Origin: a bacterium
Lineage (GTDB): Bacteria; B130-G9
NCBI GenBank assembly: GCA_035527515.1
Contig: DATLAJ010000130.1
Location: forward strand, 1-42,039
DNA length: 42,039 nucleotides
Direction: 5' to 3'
Part shown: positions 6,519-34,271 of the stretch, piece by piece
Numbering within the stretch: position 1 is the first letter of the stretch
How the letters are laid out: each line of letters opens with the position of its first letter
Program-made: the position numbers and the translations under genes
The notes under the pieces: model-generated
What the model saw: the letters and a program-made list of their open reading frames with translations, nothing else
Told to the model about the DNA's origin: nothing
The model's database searches: none

Positions 6519-6534
6519 CTGCTGTTCGGCCGCC

Positions 6535-6832
6535 CCGATAATCAGATTGGTCGTTTCTGAAGCTGGCTGCCACGTAGGCACGGGAGTTCATGTCGACGGC
6601 CGAGTTGCTGGCTCTTTCAGCTAACGGGTGCGAACGAGGGGTGCAGGCTGTAATCCCCGAGAGGGGATACCGTGGGTAGCCGTGCGTGCAACGCAACGGG
6701 GAGGGGGATTGTGGCGTTATTCGCACCGTCAGGCTACGCCTGCGGCTACCCATGGTCTGCCCTTCGGGCACGAGCTTCTGCCCTCCATCCGCGAGGCAGC
6801 CGCAACGTTCCCCGCTCCAATCTGATTATTGG
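6535..6832. mobile_element. MITE-like inverted-repeat element, copy 1
   Basis: This 298-base segment is bounded by 16-base terminal inverted repeats, CCGATAATCAGATTGG at 6535-6550 and CCAATCTGATTATTGG at 6817-6832, with one mismatch. It is nearly identical along its length to 18127-18447. Inside are several short hairpins (CCCCGAGAGGGG, a GTGGGTAGCCG module at about 6672, and CCCTTCGGG). Open frames inside it are not conserved coding sequence. No target-site duplication is obvious. It has no transposase, so it must be a passive element or an extragenic repeat. Confidence 0.75.
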
Positions 6833-6966
6833 AAGCCGGAAGGTCTGGTTTGTAGGGTAGAGGTGTCCGGCTTTACAAAGCACGGAAGGCGTGTCAATTT
6901 TGACGTGGCGGCGCAGATGAGTGAACAAATCACTTATGCACACACCTATTGTCGCAGGGAGGGTCA

Positions 6967-7482
6967 ATGAGAGGTTACGTTCAGGTCTATACGGGGAACG
7001 GCAAGGGCAAGACGACAGCAGCTCTGGGCCTCGCCCTCAGGGCAGCCGGCGCCGGGCTCAAGGTCTTCATTGCGCAGTTCGTCAAGGGCATGCACTCCAG
7101 CGAGCTTGACGCCCTGAAGCGATTGTCGGACTTGATCACGGTCAAGCAGTTTGGCCGAGGGGTGCTCATTTACGACGAGCCGAACGAGGCGGACGTGCAG
7201 GCGGCGCAGAAGGGCCTTTCGGAGATCAAGAGTTGCATCGCATCTGGCGAGTATCAGCTCGTCATCCTGGACGAGGCGAACATCGCGACGTATTTAAGAA
7301 TGTTCTCGGTCGAGGACCTGTTGTCTGTGATCGACGGCAAGCCCGACGACGTGGAGCTAGTGATCACTGGCCGCAAGGCCGATCCAAGGGTGATTGAGCG
7401 GGCAGACCTCGTAACCGAGATGGTAGAGGTGAAGCACTATTATCAAAAGGGGGTCGAGGCGCGAAAGGGGATTGAGAAATAA
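6967..7482 (+). CDS. cobO: Cob(I)alamin adenosyltransferase, CobO/BtuR type
   Basis: The 171-residue enzyme transfers the adenosyl group of ATP to cob(I)alamin or cob(I)yrinate diamide, making coenzyme B12 in the cytosol. The N-terminus carries the family P-loop, VYTGNGKGKTTAALG at residues about 6-20. The Walker-B-like segment VILDEAN lies near residues 94-100, and the ELVITGRK segment typical of CobO follows. The ATG at 6967 is chosen because GGGAGG lies five bases upstream; a TTG at 6949 would add six residues without a better site. No cobalamin riboswitch was recognisable upstream. It stands alone from other B12 genes, which suggests B12 salvage. Confidence 0.93.
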   Translation: MRGYVQVYTGNGKGKTTAALGLALRAAGAGLKVFIAQFVKGMHSSELDALKRLSDLITVKQFGRGVLIYDEPNEADVQAAQKGLSEIKSCIASGEYQLVILDEANIATYLRMFSVEDLLSVIDGKPDDVELVITGRKADPRVIERADLVTEMVEVKHYYQKGVEARKGIEK

Positions 7483-7506
7483 GATGAGATGTCCCGAATT
7501 ACGTAC

Positions 7507-7536
7507 TTGATTGGGAATGTCCGATAGGAGTACATT
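7507..7536 (+). promoter_or_regulatory. Candidate promoter before the NUDIX gene
   Basis: TTGATT (7507-7512), an 18-base spacer and TACATT (7531-7536) precede the ATG at 7572 by about 35 bases. Match quality is moderate, four to five of six in each box. Confidence 0.35.
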
Positions 7537-7571
7537 GAGCAGGCTGTCTGAATCCATTTGGGGTAACTGTC

Positions 7572-8246
7572 ATGTCGTCAGAGCGAATCTTGGTCGTGCC
7601 TCGCGACGTTTTGGAGCGGACCGTGGCCCATTTGCGGCCGCCGGCATCAATGCAGGCTGGCCCTGAACAGGAGGTGCTCTCCCGCTCCAGCAAGCCTGTT
7701 CTAGAGCCTTTCGGCAACACCGAGGTTGCGTGGGAAGTGCTAAAGGCTATGTCCGGTTCTTATCGGTTTGTTGAGCGTGATGATGCCGAAAACGACCCGT
7801 CGCTGAAACAGATTATCCCCTACGTCATCATCAGATACGGGACTAGTGTCCTGCTAATGAGGCGCCTTCACAGCCAATCGGAGAGTCGGCTCTGGGACAA
7901 GCTATCCCTCGGTATCGGCGGGCATGTGAATCCGGAGGATGGGCCGGCGGACTTCTTCGACGCTTTCTTGTCAGGCATGGAACGTGAGCTACACGAGGAG
8001 CTCTACATCTCGAACAAGTATGCCTGTCGGCTCGTTGGATGCATTAACGATGACACAACCGATGTCGGAAGAGTCCATTTCGGCATTGTGTTTCAGGCGC
8101 TCTTTTCAAACAACAGCGTTCGGATTCGCGAGACATCCAAAATGACCGGCAACTTCATCGAGATTAAGGAGCTCGCCTCAATCCACCCGCAAATGGAATC
8201 GTGGTCGCAAATAGTGTTCGACCATTTCCTCTCCAGGCTGGTCTGA
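7572..8246 (+). CDS. NUDIX-domain hydrolase
   Basis: The 224-residue protein has an unplaced N-terminal region (1-80) and a NUDIX domain (about 82-215). The NUDIX box is visible as GGHVN followed by the helix MERELHEELY, matching the REUXEE metal-binding core. The family hydrolyses a nucleoside diphosphate linked to another group; the substrate cannot be read from the sequence. The gene is 11 bases from the methyltransferase that follows, so the two are probably co-transcribed with it and perhaps with the nucleotidyltransferase beyond. Confidence 0.85.
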   Translation: MSSERILVVPRDVLERTVAHLRPPASMQAGPEQEVLSRSSKPVLEPFGNTEVAWEVLKAMSGSYRFVERDDAENDPSLKQIIPYVIIRYGTSVLLMRRLHSQSESRLWDKLSLGIGGHVNPEDGPADFFDAFLSGMERELHEELYISNKYACRLVGCINDDTTDVGRVHFGIVFQALFSNNSVRIRETSKMTGNFIEIKELASIHPQMESWSQIVFDHFLSRLV

Positions 8247-8257
8247 TTCGGGTCTCG

Positions 8258-9364
8258 ATGAGCCAGGACGCAGGGCCCGGCTCAAGCGCCCTGACCTTCG
8301 AGAAGGGCGCATGCTGTCTCTGCGGTCGAGAAGATGGTGAAGTGGTCGTGAGGGGGAACGACCCAGCTCTCGGCAGTAATTCGCCGGAGTTTGCATTCAT
8401 CAGGTGCCCCGACTGTGGCATTCTGTTTCTCGAGCCCAAGCCAACAGCCGAGAGCATTGACCTTCTGTATCCAGACCAATACTACGCGAGGGATTTCCGG
8501 GCGATTCGCCAGGCCGCTATGCACAAGCCTTCCCGTCTGAAGCAGCGGCTTCAGGCTTGCATACTGCGCAGCTATGGCCTGATTCAGAAACCCGAAGCCG
8601 AAAAACACAAGAGTAGCTCGCATCGGGCCCCGACAAAACCACTTGCGGCTCTCTGGGACTTTGTGTGCAAAACCTCCGTCTTCCCGCTTGCTGTTCGACA
8701 GAGCTCGCTTCTCAGAACCCTAGTCTATAACCGCCGGCTCTTCCAATTCCGCCGAAAGCCTGCCCGCGTGCTCGAGGTGGGGTTCGGCAACGGTCTCTTG
8801 CTGGACGCTCTCTCGCACCTTGACACGGAGCTTTTCGGGACAGAAATCTCGCCCGAAGCGTGCAAGGTGCTGGCCGCAACCCTCGGTGTTCACACGTTCT
8901 GCGGGCAGCTCTGGGAAGCCAATTATGAGGACAACCAGTTCGATCTTGTCATATTCTCGCACTCACTCGAACACCTTGCCGATCCCATGCGCGCCCTGCG
9001 CGAGGCGCGAAGGATAATCGCTCCCCAGGGGGCGGTTGTGATCAGCGTGCCCAACCCAAATTCACTCTCAGCGAGAACGTTCAAAGAGCACTGGACTGGT
9101 TACGATTTTCCCAGACATCTCTTCCTGTTTGGCTCCGATGCACTGTCCATGATGGCCGAAAAAGTAGGTTTGAGGCTCCAGACACTTCATTTCCCAATGG
9201 AAGCCAGCCTGCACCATCTCGCCGAATCAATTAACTCGCGCCTCGGCCTGCGCCTCATCCCTGACGTTGCGTCCAGAACGCTCATCACTCAGCTTTTATA
9301 CCTGCCGATCATTGTGTTCAAGGCAGGAGATATCCTAACTGCTTGTTTTAGCGCCAAAAAATGA
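8258..9364 (+). CDS. SAM-dependent methyltransferase with N-terminal zinc ribbon
   Basis: The protein is 368 residues from the ATG at 8258; a GTG at 8201 would overlap the NUDIX gene and is less likely. Two Cys pairs (CCLCG near 18 and CPDCG near 50) form a zinc ribbon of the kind seen before Methyltransf_23 domains. The class I fold shows motif I as VLEVGFGNG, the acidic loop FGTEISPE and the post-I motif DLVIFSHSLEHLADP. The family methylates small molecules, often sugars or cell-surface intermediates, but the substrate here is unknown. The downstream sugar nucleotidyltransferase makes a role in surface glycan synthesis plausible. Confidence 0.87.
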   Translation: MSQDAGPGSSALTFEKGACCLCGREDGEVVVRGNDPALGSNSPEFAFIRCPDCGILFLEPKPTAESIDLLYPDQYYARDFRAIRQAAMHKPSRLKQRLQACILRSYGLIQKPEAEKHKSSSHRAPTKPLAALWDFVCKTSVFPLAVRQSSLLRTLVYNRRLFQFRRKPARVLEVGFGNGLLLDALSHLDTELFGTEISPEACKVLAATLGVHTFCGQLWEANYEDNQFDLVIFSHSLEHLADPMRALREARRIIAPQGAVVISVPNPNSLSARTFKEHWTGYDFPRHLFLFGSDALSMMAEKVGLRLQTLHFPMEASLHHLAESINSRLGLRLIPDVASRTLITQLLYLPIIVFKAGDILTACFSAKK

Positions 9365-9464
9365 CGATGCGCTTCAAATCCAGCGGCAGCGCCAAGCAGA
9401 GCCGAGGTCCTAGACCTTCAAAATCCGCTCTCCGACACTGGACGCCACAGCGAGGCACAATTCA

Positions 9465-10472
9465 ATGAAGGCGATGTTGTTCTGTGCGGGCGTTGGGTCG
9501 CGGCTGTTACCGATCACAGAGACCGTCCCCAAACCGATGGTGGATTTCTTTGGCAAGCCGTTAGTGGACTACACATTATCCCAGCTTGCGGATTGGGGCA
9601 TAGATGAAATCGTGGTGAACCTGTTCCACAGGCCCATGACCATCAAGCGGCACATCTTGTCTCGCTGGCGGAGCAAGTTTGGCCTACACTTCTCAAAGGA
9701 GCAGGAGCTGCTCGGGACTGGCGGCGGCCTGAAGAGGGCGGAGCGGCTCCTCGGTGACGAGACTTTCCTGGCCGTCAATAGCGATTTTGTTCTCGATCCG
9801 TCAATAGATATGGAACACGTGGTCCAGATGCACTCAAAGAGAGCCGCCGCCGCAACGCTGCTCCTTGCCCAGCGCAAATCGCAGAAGTACACGCCGATCC
9901 AGACCGATGCTGAGGGCCGCATCTCGATGCTGGGGGGGCTGTTCGGCACTGCTGACGGCGAGCGCCCGTCCTACGTGTTTTGCGGCCTGCACATACTCGA
10001 GGCAGCCATCTTCGAGTACCTATGTTCTGGCCGGCCGGACACGGTGATGTCGGCGAACGTCAAGATGCTGCGCACAGGGCTGCTCGTTCAGGGATTCGTG
10101 CATAACGGCTACTGGCAAGAGTTGGGGGATAAAGAGGGCTACCTACAGGCGCATTTCGACGTTCTTGACGGCTCAAGCCCGCTTCGGCGAGCGGTCGAGA
10201 TGGCCGGCAACTACGCGATTATCAAACACAATGACCAAGCGGAAACCATGGAGAAGCTCGGCATCGATGTGTCTAGCGGGGCGAAGATCGAGCCTCCCGT
10301 TGCGCTTGGTGCGTCTTGCTCAATCGGCAAAGGCGCATCGGTTGGGCCCTACGTAATCGTGGGCGAGGGCGCCAGCGTGGGCCGCGGAGCAAAGATCACG
10401 CGATCGGTCGTCTGGCGAGGCGCCAAGATAGCTCCCGACGCAGTCCTTGCCAACGAGATAGTCCCATCCTAG
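9465..10472 (+). CDS. Sugar-1-phosphate nucleotidyltransferase with left-handed beta-helix
   Basis: The 335-residue enzyme would join a sugar 1-phosphate and an NTP to give NDP-sugar plus pyrophosphate. The N-terminal Rossmann domain (1-230) opens with the family signature AGVGSRLLPITETVPKPMV; a metal-binding aspartate lies in VNSDFVL near 107. The C-terminal part (about 265-330) has hexapeptide repeats (SIGKGASVGPYVIVGEG and similar) that form a left-handed beta-helix. This two-domain shape fits mannose-1-phosphate guanylyltransferase or glucose-1-phosphate thymidylyl/uridylyltransferase relatives; sugar and nucleotide are undetermined. It lies 100 bases after the methyltransferase and converges with the metal permease. 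Confidence 0.88.
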   Translation: MKAMLFCAGVGSRLLPITETVPKPMVDFFGKPLVDYTLSQLADWGIDEIVVNLFHRPMTIKRHILSRWRSKFGLHFSKEQELLGTGGGLKRAERLLGDETFLAVNSDFVLDPSIDMEHVVQMHSKRAAAATLLLAQRKSQKYTPIQTDAEGRISMLGGLFGTADGERPSYVFCGLHILEAAIFEYLCSGRPDTVMSANVKMLRTGLLVQGFVHNGYWQELGDKEGYLQAHFDVLDGSSPLRRAVEMAGNYAIIKHNDQAETMEKLGIDVSSGAKIEPPVALGASCSIGKGASVGPYVIVGEGASVGRGAKITRSVVWRGAKIAPDAVLANEIVPS

Positions 10473-18126: not shown

Positions 18127-18447
18127 CCGATAATCAGATTGATCGTTTCTGAAGTTGAGCTCTGAAGCTGGCTGCCACGTGGGCACGGGAGTTCATGTCG
18201 ACGGCCGAGTTGCTGGCTCTTTCAGCTAGCGGGTGCGAACGAGGGGTGCAGGCTGCAAATCCCCGACAGGGGATACCGTGGGTAGCCGTGCGTGCAACGC
18301 AACGGGGAGGTTAGAAAGGGGGATTGTGGCGCTATTCGGACCGTCAGGCTGCGCCTGCGGCTACCCATGGTCTGCCCTTCGGGCAGGAGCTTCTGCCCTC
18401 CAGCCGCGAGGCAGCCGCAACGTTCCCCGCTCCAATCTGATTGTCGG
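18127..18447. mobile_element. MITE-like inverted-repeat element, copy 2
   Basis: This 321-base segment is nearly identical to 6535-6832 but has two small insertions (about 13 bases near 18155, which partly duplicates neighbouring sequence, and about 9 bases near 18310). Its ends are CCGATAATCAGATTGA (18127-18142) and CCAATCTGATTGTCGG (18432-18447), imperfect inverted repeats. It occupies the gap between the divergently regulated rubrerythrin series and lptFG. There is no coding content that I can support. Confidence 0.75.
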
Positions 18448-24186: not shown

Positions 24187-24309
24187 TCACGCCCGCCTCG
24201 CCACCTTGTTCGCCAGAATAGAGATCAGCCCGCCCAGGCCAATGTAGCCGAAGATGACCTCGAGAGCCGCGAAGAATCGCACCGAACCTGGTTGTGCGCC
24301 CTCAATCAC
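24187..24309 (-). pseudogene. Remnant C-terminus of a second ion-channel gene
   Basis: A short open frame just downstream of, and overlapping by a few bases, the channel gene at 24302 encodes PGSVRFFAALEVIFGYIGLG followed by GLISILANKVARRA and a stop. This aligns with the last membrane helix of the intact neighbour (PGRLFVVVEVILGYIYLGVL and ISVFASG). Pore helix, selectivity filter and sensor domain are missing, so this is the tail of a lost paralogue, left by deletion between tandem copies, rather than a working gene. A small translated peptide cannot be excluded because a GTG overlaps the upstream stop. Confidence 0.65.
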
Positions 24310-25573
24310 CTTTTATGAATTGGACGATTCCGCTAGCGAACACTGATATGAGAACACCCAAATAGATATATCCTAAGATCACCTCAACTACCACAAATAG
24401 CCGGCCCGGAAGATTCAAAGGAACCACATCGCCGAATCCGAGAGTTGTCATCGTAACAATGCTGTAATAATAGGGAACGAATCCATCCGAAGCATATCCA
24501 TCCAGAGAAAGCTCATAAACTTCCCCCACCTTGGGATCGATTACTGAGAGAAATCCTGCAATGGGTTCCGGAAGCCATTGAGGGCATGTATAGTCTGCAT
24601 ACGCGAAGCCGAAGATGAAAGCCAATATGGCGATTTGGATAAAGAAAAGAATGTATGATTTACCGTAGAAGAGGAGCCAGCGCAGCATGAATGCATTTGC
24701 AGGATTATGTGCACGGTAATCTTCTACGCGCGAAATCCACTTCACGTAACGCCTGGCGGCGGGCGTCATGCGAGCTCGATCAATGCCATCGGCGCCGTCC
24801 CAGCGAGTAATTTGGATCCTACCGTCTCTGCTTCTGAGTGCATCTCTAAACATCGTCGATACGGTATATAGTGTCTGCTTTATCTCTCTGAGGTCGGCTT
24901 CATTCATCTTCGCCAGCGATAGATCCGCATTCCGTATATCCGAATAGCGCAGGTCAGTTCGCGTCAGATTGGCTCCTCTAAGACTTGCCCCTCGAAGGTC
25001 GGAGTTCCAGATGTTGGAACCCTCGAGATTCACATCGAATAAACCCGCATCCCGCAGGTCCATGTCCCACCCATGCAGAACTCCCCGTATCCACGCTTGA
25101 CGAAGCGAAGCCCCTCTCATCGAGGCGGCAATTAGGGTCGCTCCCTCCAGGTTAACACCGTCTAGCCGTGCATTGTTGAATTCAGCGCTTTGAAGGCTGG
25201 CACCGCGAAGATCCGCCTTAGTAAGGTCGGCATCTGAAAAATCGGCGCATTCTGCGATGGTCTGCGCTAGATGTGTATGATTAAGAATGGCTCCATTCAG
25301 CTTGGCGTGGCAAATATCCGCGCCCTGCATCTTGGCGCGTGACAGATTAGCCCCTTCCAGCTTCGCCCCACCCATTTTGGCGCCCCCAAGCTCTGCCGCC
25401 ACAAGGTCAGCTTCCTGCAGAACGGCACCGAAGAGTTTGGCTTTTTGATGTTCGATGTGTATTTTGAATCCACGCTTCTGCTGCCCGGCTAAGTGCTCCC
25501 AGCAGTTGTCCTCGTCAAACAGAGCGAGCTTCTCGCAATCCTCATGTTTGCAGACTTTGTCGCTCGCCATCAT
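24302..25573 (-). CDS. Pentapeptide-repeat / K+-channel fusion protein 1
   Basis: The 423-residue protein begins with a Cys/His cluster (CKHEDC at 8-13, CWEH at 24-27) that could bind a metal. Next come about 35 pentapeptide repeats of the A(D/N)LxxA type (about 48-232), expected to form a right-handed quadrilateral beta-helix. A linker with helices follows (235-295), then two membrane helices (about 306-326 and 391-415) flanking a pore loop with selectivity filter TLGFGD (377-382), as in two-helix K+ channels. The fold suggests a tetrameric channel with a cytosolic beta-helix sensor. A GGAG box precedes the start. A remnant of a paralogue follows directly. Confidence 0.9.
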   Translation of the reverse strand: MMASDKVCKHEDCEKLALFDEDNCWEHLAGQQKRGFKIHIEHQKAKLFGAVLQEADLVAAELGGAKMGGAKLEGANLSRAKMQGADICHAKLNGAILNHTHLAQTIAECADFSDADLTKADLRGASLQSAEFNNARLDGVNLEGATLIAASMRGASLRQAWIRGVLHGWDMDLRDAGLFDVNLEGSNIWNSDLRGASLRGANLTRTDLRYSDIRNADLSLAKMNEADLREIKQTLYTVSTMFRDALRSRDGRIQITRWDGADGIDRARMTPAARRYVKWISRVEDYRAHNPANAFMLRWLLFYGKSYILFFIQIAILAFIFGFAYADYTCPQWLPEPIAGFLSVIDPKVGEVYELSLDGYASDGFVPYYYSIVTMTTLGFGDVVPLNLPGRLFVVVEVILGYIYLGVLISVFASGIVQFIKGD

Positions 25574-25850
25574 GCGCTCCGCTTCCGGCTCCTTATGTTA
25601 TTTCTAGTCAATTTTTGTGCGAGCGGGATTATCCGCTATTGACCCCGTTCTTTCAAGGGACATTGCTCGATCAAGATTGCTGAGATGCCTTTCAGGTCAA
25701 TAGGCAGCCCCGCCTCTGCTCCACCCCCCTCGCTTGATTCCAGGAGTTTCCCCAATCTTGAGCGCAGAATAGCTGGTTTATCGGCTATGTGGCTCTAATT
25801 CCGGACGGCATCGACTGGAATTGGAGCTTACCGGAGCCGGGGCATACTTC

Positions 25851-26088
25851 CGCCCTGAAAGGGTGGAACGTGGGTAGCCGTAGGCGTCAGCCTACGGATC
25901 ACGGCCAGCGAAGAAAAAGAAAAACAACCCTGAAAGGGTTGCACAATCGACCGTTTCATGACGAAGGCTTCTGGTGTGAAAGGACTGTTGTGCGGCCCCT
26001 TCAGGGCCGATCTGGGGAGGTGGGGATGCGTTCCGATTCCGTAGGCTGACGCCTACGGCTACCCACGTTAATCCCCTTCGGGGATTCG
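25851..26088. repeat. REP-like composite with perfect 29-base inverted repeats
   Basis: The arms at 25869-25897 and 26039-26067 are exact reverse complements and each contains its own hairpin CCGTAGGC-GTCA-GCCTACGG next to a GTGGGTAGC box. Further short hairpins (CCTGAAAGG near 25930, CCCCTTCGGGG near 26073) lie inside and beside them. The gap 25574-26165 holds no gene I can support; the open frame across it is repeat-derived. Confidence 0.7.
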
Positions 26089-26165
26089 GAGGCGGCGTCG
26101 AGCATCTGAGACGAAGTCGGCATCATGAACCAGTCCAAAACAGAATGGGGAAACTCCCCCTCGCC

Positions 26166-28495: not shown

Positions 28496-29968
28496 TTACT
28501 GCTCCGACTCCTCATCAATCAGGCGAATGGTGCGCGGGCGAGAAAGCCTCTCAACGCCGGGCCTAAGCTGAGCCAGCTGCTGCCTGATCGCCCCCAGGAC
28601 GCTGACGACCTCCTTGGAGGTTACGAGCAATTCGAGGTTCTTGTTGGCCGCGTTGAGCGTTTCGGTCGCTTTCTTCTGTTCCACGACGGCGGCTGTGAAG
28701 GCATCCACCTTGGCCTCGAGCCCCGCCCTGAGCGACTCTATTGACAACGCGCCGTCGGCTGCGCTCTTCCTGACGGCCTTGATGAGCGCCGATATCTCCT
28801 CCTGAGCGGCCTTTCTCTCTTGGGCAAGATGCGCGACGTTCTCCTTGAACGCCGCAGTGATCCCCTCGCTGGCGGCAGATGCAGCGGCCGTCGCGGACTC
28901 GGTAACCTCCTTGGACACGGCCCTGAGCTCGTCGAAGCGACCAGTCATCGATTCGGCGAGCCGTGCGAATTCAAGTAGGCTTTTCTTCTGGTCCTGCGTG
29001 AAGGTTGAGACCGTTGCTGAGAACTTCTCACACTCGCCTGCGAGCGATGAGATGAACGTGCTTTTGAAGCGCTCGAGGATGTCGAGCTGATTTCTCATCG
29101 AGAGTTCCAGAACCTTTGCGAGTATCGCCGATTCAGGCGTTGGCGTCTCGATTCTCCGCTTGACCGCCCTTGTGATCGCGCTGTCGATACAATACCTATC
29201 GAACGCAGTCAGAAGGTTCTCCTCGGACTTCTGAAGCGCAGACATCGGTATCATCAAGACCAGGCTGACCACGAGGGCCAACAAGGTGGTCTCAAACGCC
29301 ACCGACAGCCCGCCTGTGACCAGGCCCAGGCCAGATTTTATCTGCGAGATGTCCGCCACAGACGCATCGACGAAATCCGAGAAGCCGGAAACGGCCTGCA
29401 CGATCCCGATGACCGTGCCGATAAAGCCGAGTATTGGAATTGCCCAGGCAAACACCTTCACCATCACGTAGGACGCCGAGAGCTCCGCCTCGTCGATCTC
29501 GCTCTCCTCGCGGAGGACGCCCTGCATCGATTCTGGCTCGCCGGTCGAGGCAAACTGGCCGAGCATCCTTACAATCCTGTTCGGCAGGACAGTTGCTCGC
29601 GATGCCTCCCATAGTTCAGAGAGGTCCGACGCTATCTGCCTCGCCGATTCGGGGCTGAAAGGTCCCTTGTGCACCTTCGCGACTGGGTCCGCCAGCAGGT
29701 ATGCTCTCTCCATCCTCATGCCGAGGTATTTGGCGAGTAGGATCGATGCACCCCAGAAGAAAAGGATTGTTATTGCATAGGGAACCCACCCCCGCTTCAC
29801 GAAGAGCTGATAGACGTAGTTGTCCGGGCTAAGGAGCGGGATCGGGAACAGATAATAGAAGATAGCGGTCAGAACAAAGCCAAGAAAGCCACAGACCCCC
29901 AGGTTGGCGTCCATGCGGCCGACATAAAACAGGCGCATAAGGCCGCGCTGGCCATTCTGCTTGGACAT
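28496..29968 (-). CDS. MotA/TolQ/ExbB-like channel protein with long C-terminal tail
   Basis: The 490-residue protein has four hydrophobic segments (about 26-45, 62-80, 168-195 and 220-246). The last two contain GFIGTVIGIVQAVSGF and SVAFETTLLALVVSLV, the pattern of the ExbB/TolQ/MotA proton-channel core. A Gly-rich TGGLS motif precedes the last helix. The remaining 230 residues are charged and helical, apparently a cytosolic coiled coil. ExbB itself is about 240 residues. No ExbD, TolR, MotB or OmpA-like partner is adjacent, so the complex is unknown. The first 30 codons and the leader are duplicated at 31900-32079. Confidence 0.8.
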   Translation of the reverse strand: MSKQNGQRGLMRLFYVGRMDANLGVCGFLGFVLTAIFYYLFPIPLLSPDNYVYQLFVKRGWVPYAITILFFWGASILLAKYLGMRMERAYLLADPVAKVHKGPFSPESARQIASDLSELWEASRATVLPNRIVRMLGQFASTGEPESMQGVLREESEIDEAELSASYVMVKVFAWAIPILGFIGTVIGIVQAVSGFSDFVDASVADISQIKSGLGLVTGGLSVAFETTLLALVVSLVLMIPMSALQKSEENLLTAFDRYCIDSAITRAVKRRIETPTPESAILAKVLELSMRNQLDILERFKSTFISSLAGECEKFSATVSTFTQDQKKSLLEFARLAESMTGRFDELRAVSKEVTESATAAASAASEGITAAFKENVAHLAQERKAAQEEISALIKAVRKSAADGALSIESLRAGLEAKVDAFTAAVVEQKKATETLNAANKNLELLVTSKEVVSVLGAIRQQLAQLRPGVERLSRPRTIRLIDEESEQ

Positions 29969-30058
29969 GTCATCAAGTCCCCAAGATGCGAGTTTCTACT
30001 AAAATTATTATGCTGAGTTTAACGGCGGCCATGAGACGGTCAAGAGCGAATCGGCGTC
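29879..30058. repeat. 180-base direct repeat, copy 1
   Basis: This covers the first 30 codons of the ExbB-like gene and 90 bases upstream. It matches 31900-32079 over 180 bases without gaps at a constant offset of 2021; only about six positions differ by eye. Confidence 0.9.
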
Positions 30059-30084
30059 GAAGCTTGCCTAAAGCACTGGCACAA

Positions 30085-31776
30085 TCACTCACCATCCTTG
30101 TCGGAATGGACGGCCGTCTCTCTCATCAATCGGCGCACCTCATCGAGTTTCTTGTCCAGAGCGGCTTGATTGGGGGCCAGCTCGAGTCCCTTCCGATACC
30201 AGGCGGCCGACCGGTCAAACTCGTGCGTACGCCGGCAATCGTCGCCCATCCATTCAGCTAAGCTCGCCATGTAGGCCCGGGCGGTCATTTCTGGTTTGGC
30301 TCGCGGCCAGTTTTCCTTCTGTTCTTTGGATACGGTTGACGGTAGCCAGCTCAGGTCATCCTCGGTGAACTCGGACATTATCTCGTCAAATCTACCGAGG
30401 TTACATTCCGGAGGGATAAGTCCAGAGGTCTGACATTCTTGGAGTATGGCTTTTGCGGCTATCTTGTGGCCGTAGAGGCTCGGATGACACGCATCCATGA
30501 TGAGGTTATTGCCGACCAGACCGTTGGCGCTGTGGGCCTCAAATAGGGAGAAGAGGTCCACGAACGGCGCTGAGTTGCGCGCGGCCACTTCCTCCATGGT
30601 ATCCCGCAATCCGAGAGTCATTCGTGCCTCCATAGTAAGCAGGACTTTGAGAGTCATTCCTGGCTTTCCAGTGCTTGCAGTATCAATTGCTTTGAAGTAA
30701 TTCTCTTTGGCCAATGCGGTGTCACCCATTTCCTCATAGGACCTCCCCAGCCAGAAATAGAAGGCAGAGAAATCCGGTCTTATCCCAATGAGCTCCTCAA
30801 ACGCACTGACGGAGGATTGCGGCTGCTTGGCGTCCAAAAGGCAAAACGCTCGCCAGAACTTCATCATCAGCTCTCGTTGTTGTTCGTGGCTTGCATTGGG
30901 GTCAAAACGCCAGTCAAACGCAGGCCAGTCCCGGTAGTTAGGACAAGGCGCCGCAAAGACGAGCCCTACCGCGTGTTCCCGAGCCATGTCGGCGATTTCC
31001 TGGAGATTGCAGTTGAATTCGAAATCGGTCACGCGGTCTCGCACCTGCCTCTCTTCAGGCGAGAGCGCTGCTAGCTCCGGAAGCGTTGCATCCCCTTCCG
31101 GCGGCGACGGGCCGGCGACTTTGTCGAAGAGAGACGCCATGACAGAGTAGATTCTCGAGCTCCGGGCAAGGGCACGCTTGATTCTGTGGCCAGCCCCGGA
31201 CCCCCTGAAAAAAGCCAATCTGTTTGTGTGCGGCTTGCGGCCCCTTTCGTTATGACCACAGAACACCACAAAGATGTCCGGCTCATATTCCAGACATTCC
31301 CGCACAATCTCGACGATGCCATAGCTGTCGATTCCCGACACGCCACAGTTTATCACCTCGAACTTGTAGTCCCCACATGCCCTGTCGAAGAACTCCTGCA
31401 TCCATCGCGCGAACGTGGCGACGTTGTTCGGATACGGTTCTCCATACATCGACGATTCGCCGAAGCAGAATACGCGGCGCGTTGACGGGCCTTTCTTGGC
31501 TGGGAAGCTCTGCGTTTGAATCGGGAGCCCAGCCTGCTCCGCTGAGGTCGCATACATTTTGACGCCGGAGCCAGATGTGCGGAGCTCAAATATCGCAGCC
31601 CCGAGGGAACGTCCTTCCCAGATGTGCCCAGGGTCGTTGCTCAAGAGCCGCATTCTCATTATATGCGTGTAGGCTGGAACCCCGGCGATTCTCAGAACGC
31701 CCTCCAAGCCGAAGAGCAGCAGGACGCCGATCGATAGAGCCAACAGGTTGAGATAGAGCTTCCTCGCGCGAGCCAT
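30085..31776 (-). CDS. Membrane-anchored SGNH hydrolase with inserted TPR region
   Basis: The 563-residue protein has an N-terminal membrane anchor (about 7-29) and then an SGNH/GDSL-type esterase domain. Block I is CFGESSMYGEPY with nucleophile Ser108; block III is CGHNERGR with Asn176; block V is DACHPSLYGH with Asp428 and His431. Between blocks III and V lies a helical stretch with TPR-like repeats (about 305-365), and another TPR-like unit ends the protein (about 520-555). The family removes ester groups, often acetyl groups on surface polysaccharides; the substrate here is unknown. The gene is flanked on both sides by the 180-base direct repeat, whose copy 2 stands where its promoter should be. 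Confidence 0.82.
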   Translation of the reverse strand: MARARKLYLNLLALSIGVLLLFGLEGVLRIAGVPAYTHIMRMRLLSNDPGHIWEGRSLGAAIFELRTSGSGVKMYATSAEQAGLPIQTQSFPAKKGPSTRRVFCFGESSMYGEPYPNNVATFARWMQEFFDRACGDYKFEVINCGVSGIDSYGIVEIVRECLEYEPDIFVVFCGHNERGRKPHTNRLAFFRGSGAGHRIKRALARSSRIYSVMASLFDKVAGPSPPEGDATLPELAALSPEERQVRDRVTDFEFNCNLQEIADMAREHAVGLVFAAPCPNYRDWPAFDWRFDPNASHEQQRELMMKFWRAFCLLDAKQPQSSVSAFEELIGIRPDFSAFYFWLGRSYEEMGDTALAKENYFKAIDTASTGKPGMTLKVLLTMEARMTLGLRDTMEEVAARNSAPFVDLFSLFEAHSANGLVGNNLIMDACHPSLYGHKIAAKAILQECQTSGLIPPECNLGRFDEIMSEFTEDDLSWLPSTVSKEQKENWPRAKPEMTARAYMASLAEWMGDDCRRTHEFDRSAAWYRKGLELAPNQAALDKKLDEVRRLMRETAVHSDKDGE

Positions 31777-31866
31777 TTTGAGTTACGCGCCCTCAGCTGC
31801 TCTCATTCAATGATGAAGCTTGAGCATTTGCTGCTTTCGCTGCCGGGCTTGTTCTGTGCGACGACC

Positions 31867-31989
31867 TCAAGTTTCTTCTCTCTTGCGGGAATCACGTCCG
31901 CCAAGAAAGCCACAGACCCCCAGGTTGGCGTCCATGCGGCCGACATAAAACAGGCGCATAAGGCCGCGCTGGCCATTCTGCTTGGACAT
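31867..31989 (-). pseudogene. Truncated 5' copy of the ExbB-like gene
   Basis: The frame starts with the same 30 residues as the ExbB-like protein (MSKQNGQRGLMRLFYVGRMD and on), then departs into ten unrelated residues and a TGA. It is the duplicated 5' end, cut off at the repeat boundary. It lies 90 bases upstream of the SGNH gene and in the same direction. Confidence 0.8.
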
Positions 31990-32079
31990 GTCTTCGAATC
32001 CCCAAGATGCGAGTTCCTACTAAAATTATTATGCTGAGTCTAACGGCGGCCATGAGACGGTCAAGAGCGAATCGGCGTC
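31900..32079. repeat. 180-base direct repeat, copy 2
   Basis: This is the second copy of 29879-30058, carrying the leader and first 30 codons of the ExbB-like gene. It brings that leader upstream of the SGNH hydrolase gene. Confidence 0.9.
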
Positions 32080-32177
32080 AAGCGTCATAAGGGCAGCGCT
32101 TCATGCATTCCTCCGCCCAAGCGCTCGCGAGATTGACCATCGTGTCAGAACCCTTTAATAAGTCCGTTTTGCGTGCG

Positions 32178-32390: not shown

Positions 32391-34271
32391 CTACCGGACC
32401 AGCTTGCGGAAGATGACGACGACCAGCGCCGCGTTCAGACCGATGCCCAGCAGGCCCTCCACCATCGCCAGCCCCGCCGCCCAGCCAATCGCACGCACAT
32501 CGCCGTAACCCACAGTCGCGAACGTTATCACGCTGAAATACAGCCCATTAAAGAATGCCGAGGCAAACGGAAACGATCCCGAATCCGACATTATCTTCCC
32601 CGTCGCATACGCCCAGCAAAAGAAGCCAGAGCATATAGCGATGACAACAGCGATCGTAATCACGACGTTGATCGGTTTCACGCCGTAGCCGAACACCTTG
32701 CGATACAGAAACCACACCCCGACACGGAGAGGCCATTTTGCCTTTCTGGCCTTCCGCGCGCATTCCGAGGCCCACCAATGAGCCTCGTCCTCATCCCTGT
32801 AGGCGCCTCGCTTGCGGAACTGTTCCTTTAGCCAAGCGTATTGCTTCCGCGCCTCGTCCCATTTGCCCTCTCTGTGCGGCTTGATGACGGGCAGGCCGGT
32901 CTTTGATGGGGAAAGGTCCCTGAATTCGCAGTCCAGCTCGCCCTGCACGAGCGTGTCTTTGAAGTTGACGGTGTAAATGCCGCGGTTGCTCTCGCGCCAA
33001 TCGTGGAATGGCTTGAGCCTGTCCCGTATTAGACACAACCAATCTCGTAACAGCGTCCGCATCCCGGGAATGTCATATTTCTCCTCTGGCTTTTCGAGCG
33101 AATCTCGGATTCTGTCGCTTCTGGTTTGGAGGTCGTTTTTCCGCTTCCGGAGCGATTGCCAGATCTGCTCCTGTCTGGCCTTTAGCTGCTTGCTATCCCG
33201 AACGGTTGAAAGGAGCACACCTTCTTTATAAATGGTCTCTTCCAGATTGACTCTCGCCGCGGCAATCTCCTTCATATCGCATAACGTCTCGAATCGAGTA
33301 CCATTGAGACTGAACGACAGTGCGCAAGCTCCTCGGAACTCCGCCTTGCCGCTGAACTTCGCGTCCCAGAAGCTGGTGTCGCCATTGAACGTCGCGTCCC
33401 GGAAGGTAGCGTCAGCATCGAATGTCGCCCCACAGAAATGCGCGCGGGCACCGAACGTCGCTCCCAGGAAGTGCGCATTGGCGCTGAACCTTGCGTTATT
33501 GAAGAACGCTACGCAACGGAAGGTCACTGTCTCGAAGCTGACATTGCCGCCGAACCTGGTTCCCATGAACCCGCCGTAACTGTCGAAACTCGCTTTTCCG
33601 AAGTCCGCAGTGCGCCTGAACGTCGCTAGGCTAAAGTCCGCCTCGCCACCAAACCTCGCGCTCTTAAAGAAGACAGCCTCGCCGCCAAACGTCGAGCTCC
33701 AGAAATGCGCGTCACCGCTGAACGTCGCTCCCTCAAAGTCGGCGTCGCCTGTGAAGTCGGCCTTCTCAAACTGGGTCTCGCCGCTGAACGTCGCTCCCCC
33801 GAAGTACGCATCGCCACAGAATGTCGCTCTCCACAAATCCGCTTTGCCGAAGATAAAGGCTCGGTCAATGTAGGACCCGGGCAAAGAGAAACTCGCATGA
33901 CTTTCGAAAATCAGGCCACGCAAATTGATTTCGCCGATCAGGCAGCCCAAACATCGTATCTCCGGCTTAAGAACCGGCCTTTCTCGTTTCTCACCGTCAA
34001 CCCCGATTGAGCCTATTGGCAGGAACTGGCCGGTCGGATGTTCGTTCTCCGCCGCTGCAAGGGCATCGACGGTGAGAGCCTCGATGTAGCAGTGCTCAAT
34101 CACTTCACCCTTGAGGATCTTCGCCGCGGCCTGCAGGGCGGTCAAATAGGCGTATCGCACATCTGGGTAGCGGTCGTATCTGATGTAGCCGGTGCGATTG
34201 CCGGCCTCGTCCACCTCCCACTCGACCTTGTGGCCGTCAGAATCGGTGTGCAGAACCTTATCTTCCGTCAA
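32391..34271 (-). CDS. Pentapeptide-repeat / K+-channel fusion protein 2
   Basis: The 626-residue protein has an N-terminal part (1-110) of unknown type, then about 40 pentapeptide repeats of the aromatic ATFxGxAxF type (about 112-330), a charged coiled-coil-like region (340-400), a linker, and a two-helix channel domain (about 548-626). The selectivity filter is FATVGYGD, the K+-type signature. It differs from channel 1 in sequence and in the repeat type but has the same architecture. Translation starts at a TTG (34269-34271) with GGGAG seven bases upstream. It is flanked by repeats on both sides and has no obvious operon partner. Confidence 0.9.
   Translation of the reverse strand: MTEDKVLHTDSDGHKVEWEVDEAGNRTGYIRYDRYPDVRYAYLTALQAAAKILKGEVIEHCYIEALTVDALAAAENEHPTGQFLPIGSIGVDGEKRERPVLKPEIRCLGCLIGEINLRGLIFESHASFSLPGSYIDRAFIFGKADLWRATFCGDAYFGGATFSGETQFEKADFTGDADFEGATFSGDAHFWSSTFGGEAVFFKSARFGGEADFSLATFRRTADFGKASFDSYGGFMGTRFGGNVSFETVTFRCVAFFNNARFSANAHFLGATFGARAHFCGATFDADATFRDATFNGDTSFWDAKFSGKAEFRGACALSFSLNGTRFETLCDMKEIAAARVNLEETIYKEGVLLSTVRDSKQLKARQEQIWQSLRKRKNDLQTRSDRIRDSLEKPEEKYDIPGMRTLLRDWLCLIRDRLKPFHDWRESNRGIYTVNFKDTLVQGELDCEFRDLSPSKTGLPVIKPHREGKWDEARKQYAWLKEQFRKRGAYRDEDEAHWWASECARKARKAKWPLRVGVWFLYRKVFGYGVKPINVVITIAVVIAICSGFFCWAYATGKIMSDSGSFPFASAFFNGLYFSVITFATVGYGDVRAIGWAAGLAMVEGLLGIGLNAALVVVIFRKLVR

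Follow-up and report, generated by a model that had tools for sequence, protein, structure and literature searches.

A gene for an SGNH hydrolase is enclosed between two direct copies of the 5' region of its neighbor, an ExbB-like gene, in contig DATLAJ010000130.1 of the bacterial assembly GCA_035527515.1, of which a stretch of 42,039 nucleotides (hereafter the window) was analyzed. This SGNH locus is best read as a further case of a known kind of insertion, accompanied by a long target duplication or by one-ended homology. It is probably, at moderate confidence, the scar of an uptake of DNA from a related strain, which would have been joined to the chromosome either with homology serving one end and end-joining the other, or through a single crossover of a circularized fragment. 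The window genome is that of a relative of Candidatus Coatesbacteria, and the phylum-level comparison set comprises four genomes in all, among which G001 belongs to the same genus. The features of the locus, all on the minus strand, are the following:

28496..29968, minus strand: complete ExbB/MotA/TolQ-family gene, 490 amino acids (aa) (Pfam MotA_ExbB, E 1.2e-11)
29879..30058, minus strand: copy 1 of the 180-bp repeat, the leader and codons 1-30 of the complete ExbB-like gene, with derived (putatively donor-like) bases at 5/5 differing sites
30016..30043, minus strand: promoter-like site in copy 1, TTGACC-16-TAAACT, differing from G001 by one base
30059..31899, minus strand: inserted segment between the copies, 1841 bp, without counterpart at the G001 site
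30085..31776, minus strand: the cargo, a complete frame of 563 aa for an SGNH/GDSL hydrolase containing TPR repeats (Pfam Lipase_GDSL_2, E 2.8e-12; TPR)
31800..31898, minus strand: open frame whose end lies 23 nt upstream of the SGNH start (from sequence inspection)
31867..31989, minus strand: stub reading frame of 40 codons (30 ExbB-like and 10 foreign, then a stop), ending 90 nt before the SGNH start
31900..32079, minus strand: copy 2 of the 180-bp repeat, the leader and a 30-codon ExbB-like stub, on the resident upstream side, equal to G001 at 5/5 differing sites
32037..32064, minus strand: promoter-like site in copy 2, TTGACC-16-TAGACT, sigma-70-like, with both hexamers matching G001
32097..32155, minus strand: pstS scrap of 59 bp, 90% identical to the G001 pstS, in the expected strand and order, and the sole remnant of the pst operon found in the genome

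The repeat was located by a repeat search and checked base by base. Its two copies are gap-free and identical at 175 of 180 positions (97%), with a spacing of 2021, as the initial annotation had described. Both copies consist of the leader and the first 30 codons of the ExbB-like gene, and identity stops abruptly at both edges. The five mismatches (29972, 29975, 29977, 29995 and 30019) are confined to the non-coding half of 90 nt; over the 90 coding bases the copies do not differ. Because the longest exact run common to both copies is 93 nt (chance expectation in 42 kb about 6e-47), a chance origin is excluded. The unit is also ruled out as a mobile repeat: across the whole genome (3,469,190 bases in 183 contigs) it was found at these two places only. 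Read along the minus strand, the order is a pentapeptide-repeat ion-channel gene, a dispersed-repeat region, the pstS scrap, copy 2, the SGNH-hydrolase gene, copy 1 and the complete ExbB-like gene. It was confirmed that copy 2 breaks off after codon 30, where the 10 foreign codons and the stop follow.

Comparison with the empty site of a relative, which the initial annotation had pointed to, is informative. In G001 a single counterpart of the leader precedes an intact ExbB-like gene, and a pho/pst operon stands upstream. The G001 frames before the leader are a porin-like frame, two response-regulator/kinase-like frames, pstS, pstC, pstA, pstB and phoU; the pst and phoU names were obtained with NCBIfam, and the porin and the two regulators were named from the sequence. 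No match to the SGNH protein was found in G001, an assembly that is about 83% complete, and the site itself is present there and empty. When the G001 stretch from phoR to the leader was searched as DNA in the window genome, it returned the two leader copies and the 59 bp of pstS, and nothing else. Since copy 2 adjoins this pstS scrap, it is taken to mark the original upstream side, with the SGNH segment and the leader of copy 1 as the newcomer. As judged from gene order, the resident arrangement of pstS scrap, leader and ExbB-like gene derived from an older one of pst operon, leader and gene. In G003, a relative of the SGNH protein (41%, 303 aa) was found on another contig, the end of which truncates the gene, and the gene upstream of the ExbB-like gene is a different one, not SGNH.

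The whole pst/phoU operon kept by G001 (L043:390-8452) appears to have been lost from the window genome, unless it lies in the unassembled few per cent. This follows from the 59-bp pstS remnant being the only match to the operon, and from the absence of any PBP_like_2 family protein in the window genome (present in 13 of 14 control genomes). The deletion lies outside copy 2 and is not attributable to the SGNH insertion event. The sole PhoU-domain frame found in the window genome is one of 606 aa on contig C165 with two PhoU matches, which is perhaps a sodium-phosphate transporter.

The bases at which the copies differ are polarized. At all five sites copy 2 carries the base of G001 and copy 1 is derived, so that the 90-base leader differs from G001 at 14/90 positions in copy 2 and at 19/90 in copy 1; the coding halves of both copies differ from it at 3/90. 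If changes had accumulated at an equal rate over the leader of copy 1 and the whole of copy 2, all five would fall in the copy 1 leader with P = 0.004. An unselected stub should change at least as fast as a working copy, and these one-sided differences are therefore probably older than the event. This suggests that the leader of the complete gene came from another strain. The initial annotation had taken the high identity as a sign of a recent event, a conclusion that is not upheld: differences that probably predate the event do not date it.

The same layout recurs in the genome. A self-comparison was made on the window and 727,461 further bases, 769,500 bases together or about 22% of the genome, with direct repeats defined as at least 90 bp, at least 80% identical and within 15 kb. 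It returned 21 direct-repeat rows, 10 of them two-copy, and 3 of these 10 enclose a gene or gene pair between copies of the 5' region of a neighboring gene. Eight of the 10 were inspected, including two without a clear label (C167 and C132); those on C114 (7 kb) and at C130 23756 were left out. Three others were labeled from the sequence and set aside, namely Rhs-like paralogues on C16, a paralogue ending at the contig edge on C90, and a duplicated gene 3' end without a 90-aa frame between the copies on C23. The two additional loci are composed as follows:

C146 (L085) 7241-8248: complete epimerase; the layout extends over L085:7241-10439
C146 (L085) 8378-9994: membrane-protein-like frame, 538 aa, without Pfam match, between the epimerase stub and the complete epimerase
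C146 (L085) 10090-10423: epimerase stub, 334-bp repeat, 94.6% identity
C107:16334-17101 (L095:1334-2101): HicBA toxin-antitoxin pair with a 108-bp copy of the der leader on either side (3 differences between the copies), the repeat edge lying at the der start codon

At the epimerase locus G001 again has the empty form, from which the insert is absent. Collinearity with G001 extends for 501 bp through the stub and its outer flank; for the complete copy, the match to G001 stops at the repeat edge. The two copies differ at 18 sites: the G001 base is carried by the stub at 12 of them, by the complete gene at 3 and by neither copy at the remaining 3; one of the three lies at the joint and may be outside the repeat. 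Pooled over the ExbB-like and epimerase loci, the polarity is 17:3 (sign test P = 0.0026, or 0.0075 if three clustered sites are counted as one). Because this second locus shares both layout and base polarity, it suggests that the same uptake route was used repeatedly in the lineage.

From the observed repeat, empty site, pstS scrap and recurrence, we infer a donor, the gene order in that donor, a route of joining and the use of a promoter by the SGNH gene. A fragment of a related strain would have entered the cell, carrying the SGNH gene, the donor leader and the 5' end of the donor's ExbB-like gene. Homologous exchange would then have taken place in the segment formed by the leader and the 5' part of the gene. 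The other end of the fragment would have been joined without homology to the resident gene at codon 30, in the manner of homology-facilitated illegitimate recombination (HFIR). Alternatively, the fragment may first have been ligated into a circle and then integrated by a single crossover. In either case the product would be the resident leader with its 30-codon stub, the SGNH gene, and a donor-derived leader driving the intact ExbB-like gene. The ExbB-like locus fits both routes, as the crossover could fall in the 93-nt identical run. At the epimerase locus a single crossover would have to be placed close to the final 25 bp of the repeat, and the one-ended route is favored there. The DprA family was detected in all four phylum genomes and is a weak sign of natural competence, since it was also found in 11 of 14 control genomes. 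A broader proposal, that the lineage repeatedly captures single genes with promoter donation, the donor 5' end and cargo being swapped in and the resident promoter stub driving the cargo, is considered unlikely.

In a strict long target duplication, a 180-bp staggered break would have been filled in around an SGNH fragment, so that both copies would be resident and would have diverged later. Such events are of a reported kind, according to passages in PMC1643837 and PMC3031569, and one locus here carries a toxin-antitoxin pair. The polarity, though drawn from few sites and one outgroup, speaks against it: the one-sided differences (5:0 and 12:3) are in excess on the working gene and not on the stub, and the equal-rate probability for the copy 1 leader given above applies to precisely this scenario, which is accordingly rated as rather unlikely. 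The initial annotation had offered two origins for the cassette, insertion or a tandem duplication followed by deletion. Insertion is supported by the empty site in G001 and the missing SGNH homologue there. A tandem duplication of leader, ExbB-like gene and SGNH segment, with deletions leaving the stub and one SGNH copy, would agree with the direct orientation and the common 5' boundary; it would also place SGNH originally downstream of the ExbB-like gene, where def and fmt now stand, and would require the extra loss of a second SGNH copy in a genome where no other close SGNH copy is found. It is regarded as very improbable. The two sides could also have been brought together by the assembly, a strain A (pstS scrap, leader and 30 codons) being joined to a strain B (SGNH, leader and gene). 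The assembly comprises 183 contigs and is of a kind whose named relatives are metagenome-assembled genomes, and a mixture of strains would give the same base polarity as uptake would. Such a chimera is nonetheless quite unlikely, given that neither the window nor the sampled contigs contain an N, that the sides have no long overlap at the 31899/31900 junction, that three loci share the layout with different divergences, and that the bin holds only one complete ExbB-like gene.

Besides the polarity expected from strain mixing, several points weigh against an uptake from a related strain. The polarity is drawn from 20 informative sites at two loci with one outgroup genome, and the sign tests of the single loci give P = 0.06 (ExbB-like) and P = 0.035 (epimerase). 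The differences at the epimerase locus, 10 silent and 8 replacement, are only mildly skewed and about evenly split at the 12 sites with a G001 base in the stub. The HicBA locus is unpolarized, as G001 has no match to that region. Within the four phylum genomes, SGNH stands directly upstream of the ExbB-like gene in no other genome. Finally, passages of PMC3240628 describe the HFIR insert as usually accompanied by a deletion, not a duplication.

Several known systems can be compared with uptake and one-ended joining. Insertion with long target duplication is said to have been originally described by Nobusato et al. in 2000 (Gene 259:99). The present loci resemble it in that a cargo lies between direct target copies of about 100 bp or longer, that the target is single in the empty site of a relative, that no transposase is involved, and that one of the three loci has a toxin-antitoxin pair. 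They differ in their cargo, which is an SGNH hydrolase, a membrane-protein-like frame and HicBA and not restriction-modification (a cargo that is frequent and not defining), and in a polarity which points to a donor, not to the resident target, as the likely source of the gene-side copy. It is for restriction-modification genes of Helicobacter that passages in PMC1643837, PMC3031569 and PMC3874152 describe this insertion.

HFIR is known from transformable bacteria, and the single crossover of a circularized fragment is another fate of linear DNA, as outlined in part of PMC3240628. The layout fits HFIR in the size of the insert, about 1-2 kb, and would agree with homology at one fragment end and a non-homologous join at the other; unlike the usual outcome, a deletion of similar size, the join here would lie inside the resident homologous segment and thus give a duplication. 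An illegitimate joint made by HFIR is expected to show 3-10 bp of microhomology. Integration of a circularized fragment likewise leaves the insert bracketed by a single direct duplication of the homologous segment, but at the epimerase locus it would require a crossover in roughly the final 25 bp of the repeat. Prophages and islands can integrate so as to rebuild the end of their target gene, e.g., e14 in icd. The same combination of a broken target end on one side and a rebuilt gene with differences on the other is seen here, although no integrase or mobility gene lies between the copies and it is the 5' end, not the 3' end, that is duplicated. Effector arrays of the Vibrio type VI system have been explained by a similar event in a passage of PMC5361080, and transposed genes of Arabidopsis with flanking repeats, treated in part of PMC2869330, provide a parallel. 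A literature search by the phylum name 'Coatesbacteria' only found that name in no title or abstract.

The copied leader could account for expression of the cargo. It is plausible that the SGNH gene is transcribed from the orphaned resident promoter of copy 2. In the promoter scan two sites were found versus 1.2 expected, which is no better than chance, and only the conservation in G001 therefore lends the site weight. If this promoter is used, the 40-codon stub peptide would be made 90 nt before the SGNH start. The open frame at 31800-31898 may possibly, as a weak indication, be the 3' end of the gene preceding SGNH in the source DNA; open frames this short are expected often by chance, and no homologue of it was found in 40 other genomes.

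Both proteins belong to their families. The ExbB-like protein matches MotA_ExbB with 44.9 bits (cut-off 22.9), and its orthologues have 93% identity in G001, 74% in G003 and 60% in G002. Its C-terminal region is long, and the protein matches the ZorA profile weakly (PADLOC, E 3.9e-08). A ZorA defense role was not adopted; three other window proteins scanned alike matched nothing. The SGNH protein matches Lipase_GDSL_2 with 47.9 bits (cut-off 32.9) and carries GESS at 106, GHNE at 174 and DACH at 428, which we take to be its catalytic blocks. A foreign composition is not apparent: the GC content of the gene is 0.564 (window: 0.566), and its codon fit, the second lowest of 22 window genes, is unremarkable. 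A phage or plasmid cargo was likewise discarded, the SGNH protein having no match in viral contigs or plasmids. SGNH is the sole credible frame between the copies, and no further copy of the insert occurs in the genome, a pattern that does not fit a cassette borne by a transposon or integrase. No Rfam match to a structured RNA was found in the region.

Further elements were noted around the locus. Two genes in which pentapeptide repeats are fused to an ion-channel domain (Ion_trans_2), at 24302-25573 and 32391-34271, flank the block of def, fmt, ExbB-like and SGNH genes. A dispersed family of about 320 bp, resembling miniature inverted-repeat transposable elements (MITEs) and bounded by 15-bp terminal inverted repeats, is found at 18127-18447 and 6532-6833 of the window and also on C114 and C146; in the self-comparison of the sample, the midpoint of one member was covered 11-fold. 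A second MITE-like unit lies at 25743-26157 of the window; it measures about 415 bp, has terminal inverted repeats of 16 bp, and is matched by a 97.6% identical partial copy at C114:80265-80633.

Scars such as these show how a gene can enter a genome without a mobile element. Should the polarity generally mark the gene-side copy as donor-derived, reported cases of long target duplication could be reinterpreted as uptake of strain DNA through one-ended homology. For the lineage itself, the uptake reading would, if true, provide indirect evidence of natural DNA uptake in a candidate phylum of which, to our knowledge, there is no cultured member.

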